From Thermoanaerobaculia bacterium (GTDB lineage: Bacteria > Acidobacteriota > Thermoanaerobaculia > Multivoradales > JAGPDF01): 37,075 nucleotides of DNA. Shown one piece after another: positions 15,400 through 17,690 of the stretch (the first letter of the stretch is position 1; each line of letters opens with the position of its first letter). The position numbers were made by a program, and so were the translations under genes. The notes beneath the pieces are model-generated. The model was not told where the DNA came from. It searched no databases and saw only the letters and a program-made list of their open reading frames with translations. The DNA is taken from positions 1 through 37,075 of the forward strand of contig JAGPDF010000046.1 in assembly GCA_018057705.1 (NCBI GenBank), read 5' to 3'.

Positions 15400-15639
15400 A
15401 TGTCTCCGACGGTGAAGAGGGTCGGGCCCTATCGATTCTTCTTCTATGGCAACGAGGGCTTCGAACCGCCTCATATCCATGTCCGTCGGGAGAGGATGCT
15501 GGCGAAGTTCTGGCTCGGGCGGATCGAGCTCGCGAGTTCGACGGGCTTTCGCCCCCATGAGCTGTTCGAGATTCAACGGCTCGTCGAGGGCAACGCGACA
15601 GAATTCGAGGGGGCGTGGCATGAGTTCTTCGGCACCTGA
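15400..15639 (+). CDS. DUF4160 protein, first gene of a DUF4160/DUF2442 pair
   Basis: The 79-residue product matches the DUF4160 pattern: MSPTV start, YRFFFYGNEG, an HIHV motif (PPHIHVRRE, about 25-33), AKFWL and a C-terminal EFEGAWHEFF. The length is normal. DUF4160 genes often sit beside DUF2442 genes, and the pair has been suspected of being a toxin-antitoxin-like module; no biochemical role is established that I know of. The next gene starts inside this one's 3' end (20-base overlap), so they are one transcript. The ATG has no ribosome site but has TATTGT 6 bases upstream. Confidence 0.85.
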   Translation: MSPTVKRVGPYRFFFYGNEGFEPPHIHVRRERMLAKFWLGRIELASSTGFRPHELFEIQRLVEGNATEFEGAWHEFFGT

Positions 15640-15895
15640 ATTGCGGCCACTGGCGCGAAATGTGTCGGTGACTGAAGACGAGCTCACCGTGGAGCTGGCC
15701 GATGGGCGCCGGATTTCGGCGCCGTTGGTCTGGTTCCCGCGCCTGCTCGCCGCCGACGCGGCCGAGCGGCAGAACTGGGAGCTGCTGGGCGACGGAGAGG
15801 GCATCCACTGGCCGGCCGTGGATGAGGATCTGAGCGTCGCTGGCCTTCTGGCCGGCGCGCGCAGCCAATCGCGCCCGTTGCGAAGAGCGGGCTGA
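15620..15895 (+). CDS. DUF2442 protein, partner of DUF4160
   Basis: The 91-residue product has the DUF2442 signature: ELTVELADGRRISAPLVWFPRL (about 22-43 region), a run with ERQNWELLGDGEGIHWP, and DEDLSVAGLLAG near the end. The start ATG at 15620 lies within the DUF4160 gene and is preceded by GAGGGGG at good spacing, indicating coupled expression. In the family the domain is small, mixed alpha/beta and of unknown function, often coded beside DUF4160. In a toxin-antitoxin reading one of the two would neutralise the other, but sequence alone does not say which. A Ser/Arg tail after LLAGARS is longer than needed for the domain. Confidence 0.85.
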   Translation: MSSSAPELRPLARNVSVTEDELTVELADGRRISAPLVWFPRLLAADAAERQNWELLGDGEGIHWPAVDEDLSVAGLLAGARSQSRPLRRAG

Positions 15896-15910
15896 CGATC
15901 TGGCCGCCTT

Positions 15911-16045
15911 GTGGCCCCCCGCGACTTCATTCGCAAGTGGAAGGCTGCGACGCTCAAGGAACGCTCGGCGGCGCAGGAGCATCTTCTCGACCTCTGCGAG
16001 CTGGTGATGCACGAGAAGCCGGCGGCGCGTCTTGAGCACGCCTAG
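15911..16045 (+). pseudogene. Remnant of an MmeI-like DNA methyltransferase N-terminus
   Basis: A GTG-started frame of 44 codons reads RDFIRKWKAATLKERSAAQ followed by EHLLDLCELV, then ends after an unrelated tail at TAG 16043-16045. The first about 32 residues match the start of large class I adenine DNA methyltransferases of the MmeI-like type (pattern xxFIxKWxxxxLKERSxxQEHFxDLC). Those enzymes are hundreds of residues longer, so this is a truncated relic and not a working enzyme. It follows the DUF2442 gene by 15 bases. The similarity to the known family is from memory and has not been aligned here. Confidence 0.6.
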
Positions 16046-16071: not shown

Positions 16072-16605
16072 ATGGGACTTGAGGCTGTCGAGATCATCAT
16101 GGGGGCCGAGGAGGCTTTCGGGGTCTCGATTCCCGACGAGGTGGCCGGGAAGATGCGGACGCCGGCGGATCTCCTCGCGTTCCTCGCTGCCGCGGTCCCG
16201 GTGGCTTCGACGCCGGAGTGTCTCACCCAGCAGCTCTTCTATCGGCTGCGCAGGGGGTTGCGATTGCAGCTCCCGTTCTCGGAAGGGAAGTTCGAGCCCG
16301 ACACGTTGCTCTCGACGGTGCTTCACCAGGACCAGTGGCCCAGGGTCTGGCGGGAGGTTCGCTCGAGCGTCGGCGACTCGACATGGCCGGCTTCCGTCCC
16401 CTGGCCCGGTTTTCTGCGCGACGGACCCAGGACGATCCGGCAGCTGATCTGGCATCTCGTGGCCGCGCTGCCGAAGCCGGAAGCGGGGGCGGCGTGGCCG
16501 CGGGAGCGCCTCGAAGCGGAGGTTCGGCGGATCATCGCCGGCGCTCTCGGAAAGAAGGACTTTCCGCTCTCCGCCCGATTCAGGGAAGATCTGGGAGTTC
16601 ACTGA
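16072..16605 (+). CDS. Acyl-carrier-protein-like protein with swapped halves and no phosphopantetheine serine
   Basis: The product has 177 residues. Residues 1-42 (MGLEAVEIIMGAEEAFGVSI then PDEVAGKM...PADLLAFLA) match the second half of an acyl carrier protein, from just after the DSL site to helix IV. Residues 147-177 (EAEVRRIIAGALGKKDFPLS then ARFREDLGVH) match the first half, helix I through the DLG before DSL. The order is therefore reversed, with the break at the phosphopantetheine site itself. The serine position corresponds to Gly2, so no carrier thiol arm can attach there. Residues about 45-140 are an unrelated linker with CLTQQLFYRLRRGLR and three Trp-containing segments. A typical ribosome site is not seen. 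It precedes rsgA by 8 bases and may be cotranscribed with it. I know of no characterised function; a scaffold or regulatory ACP mimic is one possibility. Confidence 0.75.
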   Translation: MGLEAVEIIMGAEEAFGVSIPDEVAGKMRTPADLLAFLAAAVPVASTPECLTQQLFYRLRRGLRLQLPFSEGKFEPDTLLSTVLHQDQWPRVWREVRSSVGDSTWPASVPWPGFLRDGPRTIRQLIWHLVAALPKPEAGAAWPRERLEAEVRRIIAGALGKKDFPLSARFREDLGVH

Positions 16606-16613
16606 GTTTCCAC

Positions 16614-17690
16614 ATGCACACGAATCTCGAAGCGTTGGGTTGGGATAGCTGGTTCGAGGCGCGGGCCGGGCTGCTCGGCGACCGGGCGGCCGGCGTGGCG
16701 CGCCCGGCGCGAGTGGCCGCTGTCGATCGGGACCAGTTGCTGTTGCTCGACGAGACGGGCGCTTTCCGGGGGAGGCTTTCGGGGAGGTTCCTGCACGCGG
16801 CGGGCGCGGCGGCGGAGCGGCCGTGCGTCGGCGATTGGGTGGCGGTCGAGAAGACGGCGGGCGAGCCGTTCGGGGTCGTGCACGGCGTCTTCGAGCGCAA
16901 GACCGGCTTGCGGCGGAAGACCGCGGGGGACTCCGTCGAGCACCAGATGATCGCGGCGAATGTCGACTTCGTGATCATCGTCCAGTCCTGCCACTTCGAC
17001 TTCAACTTGCGGCGACTCGAGCGCTACCTGGTCATGGTGTGGGAGGGCGGGGCGACACCCTCCGTGCTCCTCACCAAGACCGATCTCGTCGCGCCCGAGG
17101 TCCTGGCCGGCCAGTTGGAGGAGATCCGGAGCGCGGGCATCGCTGCGTCGGTCTCGACCCTGAGCAACGTCACCCGCGAGGGGGTCGAAGAGCTCCGGCG
17201 CCAGCTGCTCCCGGGCAAGACCTACTGCTTCGTCGGCTCGTCGGGGGTCGGCAAGAGCACTCTCATCAACGGACTTCTGGGCCGGGACCGGCTCGATACG
17301 AAGGCGGTCAGCGGCACGGGCGAAGGGCGGCATACGACCGTGCGCCGGGAGCTCCTCGTGCTCGAGAACGGTGCGATGGTGATCGACAACCCCGGGATGC
17401 GCGAGCTCGGCCTGCTGGGCGCGGAGAGCGGCATCGAAGCGAGCTACCCGGACATCGGTGAGCTCGCGTCCCAGTGCCGTTTCCGCGACTGCACCCATGC
17501 CAACGAACCGGGCTGTGCCATTCGCGCGGCGTTGGAGTCCGGTGCACTGGACGCTGGGCACTACGAGAACTTCCTCAAGCTCAAGAGCGAGTCAGAGTAC
17601 CTGCAGATGTCCTACGCCGAGAAGCGGAAGAAGGAGAAGGACTTCGGCCGGTTCATCAAGTCCGTCCAGAAGCGGCTGCGCGAGGACTGA
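16614..17690 (+). CDS. rsgA: Ribosome small-subunit GTPase RsgA (YjeQ)
   Basis: The 358-residue product is full length for RsgA, the circularly permuted GTPase that helps late maturation of the 30S subunit. An N-terminal OB-fold covers about 25-95 (RVAAVDRDQLLLLDETGAF; CVGDWVAVE). The permuted G motifs follow in the family order: TKTD (G4, 154-157), GSSGVGKS (G1, 208-215), GEGRHTT (G2 region, 237-242) and DNPG (G3, 258-261). The C-terminal zinc site is C288, C293, H295 and C301 (CRFRDCTHANEPGC). I chose ATG 16614 because it opens the domain, 8 bases after the ACP-like stop. The frame is open far upstream but that part overlaps the ACP-like gene. The ribosome site is weak. A small hypothetical gene follows 26 bases later. 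Confidence 0.96.
   Translation: MHTNLEALGWDSWFEARAGLLGDRAAGVARPARVAAVDRDQLLLLDETGAFRGRLSGRFLHAAGAAAERPCVGDWVAVEKTAGEPFGVVHGVFERKTGLRRKTAGDSVEHQMIAANVDFVIIVQSCHFDFNLRRLERYLVMVWEGGATPSVLLTKTDLVAPEVLAGQLEEIRSAGIAASVSTLSNVTREGVEELRRQLLPGKTYCFVGSSGVGKSTLINGLLGRDRLDTKAVSGTGEGRHTTVRRELLVLENGAMVIDNPGMRELGLLGAESGIEASYPDIGELASQCRFRDCTHANEPGCAIRAALESGALDAGHYENFLKLKSESEYLQMSYAEKRKKEKDFGRFIKSVQKRLRED

Follow-up and report, generated by a model that had tools for sequence, protein, structure and literature searches.

A circularly permuted, serine-less acyl carrier protein in a large bacterial family, probably a mimic of the carrier

Can an acyl carrier protein (ACP), the shuttle of fatty-acid synthesis, be encoded with its two halves in reversed order, and what would such a protein do if the residue that holds the cofactor were missing? 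The question was raised by an open reading frame at positions 16072-16605 (+) in a 37,075-nucleotide stretch of DNA from a Thermoanaerobaculia bacterium (Acidobacteriota; contig JAGPDF010000046.1), hereafter the window. An earlier note, made from the sequence alone, had described the product as an ACP with its halves exchanged, split at the cofactor site, with Gly in place of the serine and with a linker of about 100 residues joining the halves. The observation was confirmed. The complete gene encodes 177 residues, has a TGA stop and ends 8 bp before the start codon of rsgA. In the numbering of E. coli ACP the protein begins with M-G-L at the positions of D35, S36 and L37 and ends at D35 (EDLGVH), so the chain is cut at the phosphopantetheine serine, and that serine is Gly (codon 2, 16075-16077).

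Both halves are recognizable at the sequence level. Residues 3-38 match the second half of PF00550 (profile positions 32-67, E 8e-4, 0.8 bit under the gathering score) and of the NCBIfam ACP models (E 2e-8), although the best score of the window protein against the latter, 33.9 bits, is below the curated cut-off of 71. In the Aquifex ACP 2ehs_A, residues 3-40 of the window protein match chain residues 36-73, and residues 147-176 match chain residues 2-33. The second half of the ACP with helices II-IV (residues 3-41) is thus encoded at 16078-16194, and the first half with helix I and the loop ending at EDLGVH (residues 142-177) at 16495-16602. A profile was built from 21 ordinary ACPs to score the rejoined ends. 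The window protein scored 38.4 bits with the N-half alone and 57.4 bits when its last 36 residues were put in front, against 37.9 bits with a shuffled C-half and 40.3 bits for the native order. In 101 relatives the true C-half added a median of 26.4 bits and always more than 3, while shuffled C-halves added -0.9. Independently, a profile of only the linker and the C-half gave matches in 378 of 396 genomes of the same phylum (listed E values mostly 1e-12 to 1e-9), and nearly all of those listed cover only positions ~136-178, which are ordinary ACP first halves. The permutation is therefore far beyond chance, and a chance match was rejected on the basis of the rejoining test and of the family described below.

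A first scan of genome contigs with the window protein found nothing, probably because the sequence is divergent. A DNA pattern that places ATG at the D35 position and leaves codon 2 free found at least 118 contigs in about ten phyla, including Planctomycetota, Verrucomicrobiota, Bacteroidota, Pseudomonadota, Acidobacteriota, Thermodesulfobacteriota and Lentisphaerota. The earlier note had suggested unannotated relatives in Planctomycetes-like genomes; relatives do occur there, but they go far beyond Planctomycetes. In the phylum of the window, 4 of 396 genomes match the pattern and the reversed control pattern matches none. Of 112 complete members, 111 have Gly at position 2, 111 have Leu at position 3, and 96 end in a DLG-like motif. 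All four Gly codons are used. In 56 of 109 members no other start codon lies between the upstream stop and this ATG, and a start-site error, with the true protein beginning upstream, was rejected for this reason. To avoid bias from the N-terminal pattern, a search was made with the linker and C-half profile alone. The 19 members found in this way have Gly2 in 17, D38 in 18, Glu or Asp at position 41 in 18, E47 in 18 and F50 in all 19; the exceptions at position 2 are one Ala and one Ser, both in divergent members. In the order of one planctomycete, 17 of 146 genomes carry a long-range match with E below 1e-15. The window copy itself has no close relative in its own family or order, and in another genome of the phylum there is a frame-broken remnant of such a gene (positions 1501-1950 of the locus), in which the linker domain is 48% identical, the C-half lies in another frame and no N-half was found. 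This could suggest that the window ORF is a decaying or non-functional ACP duplicate. However, strong constraint across about ten phyla, a single supported grouping, a confident predicted fold and exact termini make this very unlikely, and for the family as a whole it is nearly refuted.

The members fall into three size classes: minimal (about 83-95 aa), about 180-200 aa, and over 200 aa. Of 49 members over 200 aa, 36 have exactly two strongly hydrophobic segments, whereas members under 200 aa almost never have any. The window protein belongs to the middle class. An AlphaFold2 model made with 68 family members (pLDDT 88.8, pTM 0.79) has predicted helices at residues 3-16, 22-27 and 31-41 (ACP II-IV), then at 51-66, 86-100, 111-116 and 122-132, and finally at 144-159 (ACP I). 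The helix order is therefore II-III-IV, linker domain, I, instead of the I-II-III-IV of ordinary ACPs. Foldseek alone gave no significant match to the full model, as expected for a permuted protein. In structural alignment with VIA-align, the 13 best matches are all ACPs, covering model residues about 45-148 (Z 4.4-7.1, 6-17% identity). The linker of the earlier note is thus not a plain linker but a second, degenerate ACP-like domain without a DSL motif (residues ~46-137, 16207-16482), and CLTQQLFYRLRR is the start of its helix I. Most relatives over 200 aa carry their two hydrophobic segments within this region. Cys50 (16219-16221) and Phe56 (16237-16239) at the start of the domain are invariant in 39 linker-bearing relatives. 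Homologs with a normal intact ACP domain in the linker had been named beforehand as a finding that would refute the note's reading, and the result touches on this point, but the domain is degenerate, and minimal relatives of 83-90 aa lack it and still have the permuted ACP. One such 86-aa member is predicted as a four-helix bundle (pLDDT 92.2, pTM 0.81), and many of its structural matches are ACPs (best Z 6.4, 1f80_F). All these Z values are under 8, middling for helical bundles, and haloacid-dehalogenase caps score alike, so that the fold search supports but does not prove the ACP arrangement; closure of the bundle by the two ends is inferred from model confidence, profile rejoining and these structural matches. 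A permuted protein with a long joining domain could in principle exchange halves with ordinary ACP or with itself, so that the functional unit would be an oligomer, but the prediction of the minimal member as a confident single-chain bundle speaks against such domain swapping, which we regard as very unlikely.

A maximum-likelihood tree of 56 rejoined permuted and 64 ordinary ACP sequences separates the two on one branch (support 96/96; 98% of bootstrap trees), and phyla are mixed within the permuted side. This fits a single permutation and transfer between phyla, although the tree rests on 75 columns, has long branches and includes ordinary ACPs mainly from two phyla. The gene is single in 42 of 45 genomes checked. 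The genome of the window has other PP-binding domains elsewhere, so this gene is an extra. A search for an operon partner among ORF clusters around ~110 loci showed none in more than 4 loci, the largest being an ABC ATPase.

Several lines of evidence indicate that the gene moves alone. Between genomes with 65-98% identical copies, DNA similarity often starts about 20-40 bp before the ATG and ends within about 20 bp of the stop, with unrelated flanks. Some of the flanks are integron cassette boundaries. In 12 of 107 loci a word of 7 or more bases beginning with GTT lies upstream and its reverse complement just after the stop, where 0.68 are expected from mismatched pairs; a stricter test finds 7 of 106, with 2 expected. 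Three cases are clear. In a member from Nevskiaceae the gene lies between attC sites, and a nearly identical attC is found in the integrase-bearing contig of that genome. In Simiduia aestuariiviva it lies at 710123-710386 (-) of contig C3, inside a cassette array with attC sites that begins at intI near 718.0-719.0 kb (+), 7.6 kb away and in the expected orientation, and a copy of the same start lies at the end of a second intI-bearing contig. In a Pirellula MAG it is the first gene, divergent from intI. In the Nevskiaceae member and in Simiduia, with attC flanks within an array and an integron integrase in the genome, the location is that of gene cassettes of sedentary chromosomal integrons, while most members have no recognizable attC and are not shown to be cassettes. 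Integron integrase (TIGR02249) scores above the curated cut-off in 15 of 43 genomes of this set and in 0 of 14 named control genomes, which are not matched for lifestyle. The 15 include the genome of the window (432 bits, contig C4:1880-2818), where an attC-like element lies near the contig start (203-299 of the locus examined), so this bacterium has an integron. The window copy itself is not in a recognizable cassette: a simple scan, which is not a trained attC model, found no attC-like site in the window, and the best complementarity between upstream and downstream flanks was 6, as in controls. Strict attC scans had missed attC sites, and the criteria were relaxed. In five loci of Flavobacteriaceae (L051, L150, L081, L088 and L145), single-gene boundaries GTTGTAAAAC / GTTTTACAAC surround similar genes in unrelated flanks, although these genomes lack an integrase above the TIGR02249 cut-off; a different cassette-like element is possible. 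No plasmid-borne relatives of the window protein were found. With regard to a phage origin, viral contigs gave one hit, a long-form member on a 57-kb contig classed as viral (IMGVR_UViG_3300044993_000663, gene from 6537, +).

Single-gene mobility, patchy distribution and the location in integron arrays or next to the integrase raise the possibility of an adaptive cassette gene of the defence, toxin-antitoxin or stress-resistance type, in which the ACP-like surface would be a sensor or bait for an attack on fatty-acid synthesis or ACP. This seems unlikely, since none of 68 members matched a PADLOC 2.0.0 model at E<=0.01, no toxin partner recurs beside the gene, and most members are not shown to be cassettes.

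What, then, could the protein do? The 68 aligned members match generic ACP models in Pfam (PF00550, E<=0.1 for all) and NCBIfam, but none has a model of its own there. Compared with the type II ACPs (PF00550, TIGR00517; e.g., E. coli AcpP), the homologous helices I and II-IV, the acidic helix II (D38, E41, E47), Phe50 and a predicted four-helix bundle are shared, whereas the circular permutation at the DSL motif, the missing serine, the frequent fusion with a second degenerate ACP-like domain and a membrane hairpin, and the often mobile gene are different. The protein is an ACP relative that fails two defining features of ACP, the helix order and the serine. ACPs without a usable attachment serine, such as some mitochondrial ACP subunits and inactive PKS carrier domains, keep the ACP fold without carrying and have structural or regulatory roles, as is inferred here, but they keep the normal helix order, while here both termini lie at the serine site. 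Searches of the open-access literature, which left out subscription papers and InterPro, on permuted or serine-less ACPs and on integrons with ACP found no description of a naturally permuted ACP or of an ACP cassette.

The earlier note had interpreted the protein as a carrier that cannot carry and that is likely to be a structural or regulatory ACP mimic, and this interpretation is partly supported. A mimic fits the near-invariant Gly2 and the acidic helix-II residues kept in the sample not chosen on the N-terminus, but a regulatory role is inference, and the view of the linker did not hold. We consider it somewhat more likely than not that the protein is a pseudo-ACP that arose once from an ACP, probably a tandem pair, when the chain was cut at the phosphopantetheine serine. 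In this view the two ends would fold into one ACP bundle, joined in the window protein by the second, degenerate domain, which in most longer relatives would carry a membrane hairpin. Without the serine the protein would not take phosphopantetheine and would not be a classical carrier. The conserved helix-II face is the one that ordinary ACPs use to dock on AcpS and fatty-acid enzymes. The protein may thus act by imitation, binding one or more ACP-dependent enzymes (AcpS, fatty-acid or lipid acyltransferases, or an ACP-regulated protein) as a decoy or regulator, at the membrane in the long forms, with the gene spreading alone between bacteria, sometimes as an integron cassette. The computations demonstrate the permutation, the replacement of Ser by Gly, the breadth of the family, the clustering of permuted sequences, the predicted folds and the cassette location of some members, whereas the loss of carrying, the binding to ACP partners, the regulatory role, the origin from a tandem pair and the membrane orientation, and with them the function as a whole, are inferred. 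No binding partner, phenotype or conserved neighbour gene supports the proposed role, and a plain decoy does not obviously need Gly2, as Ala, Asn or Asp might do.

The near-invariance of Gly2 is the strongest fact left unexplained by this model. It is the least variable free position of the N-half (entropy 0.08 bits, against 0.8-3.6 for other free positions), and the start codon directly before it is ATG or GTG in nearly all members. As methionine aminopeptidase removes Met before Gly, the glycine is expected to become the N-terminal residue, right at the old serine site. Its amine might therefore be acylated or otherwise modified, and the protein would carry or anchor a chain by an amide instead of a thioester. 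This is possible but unlikely, since no acyltransferase or other gene recurs beside it, bacteria are not known to have a dedicated N-terminal glycine acyltransferase, and Gly may be kept only for helix-cap geometry. It is slightly less likely still that the permutation exists precisely to create such an N-terminally acylated carrier or membrane anchor in many phyla, spread on gene cassettes. ACP is one of the most studied and most connected bacterial proteins, and a natural permutation cut precisely at its active serine, kept in about ten phyla and moved between genomes as a single gene, appears to be undescribed in the libraries and papers searched. If the protein is a mimic, it gives a natural probe and possible inhibitor of ACP-dependent enzymes; if its N-terminus is modified, it is a new way to carry or anchor acyl chains. 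It also gives a testable function to an integron cassette gene.

The surroundings of the gene add some minor observations. Directly upstream in the window (15400-15892, +) a DUF4160 gene is followed by a DUF2442 gene, a pair typical of accessory or toxin-antitoxin-like islands. Between this pair and the permuted ACP there is a 45-codon ORF (15908-16045, +; PRDFIRKWKAATLKERSAAQEHLLDLCEL) without a Pfam match, which resembles the N-terminus of MmeI-like DNA methyltransferases and looks like a truncated remnant. Downstream, the RsgA GTPase (16614-17690, +) is only 34-46% identical to the best matches in seven genomes of the same order or family and may be an extra or foreign copy; synteny around rsgA in relatives of the order was not informative. 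In another locus (L047) the first ORF downstream of the permuted ACP is a further serine-less, ACP-like ORF (HDLGIDADDAEEML), which is DUF1493-like.
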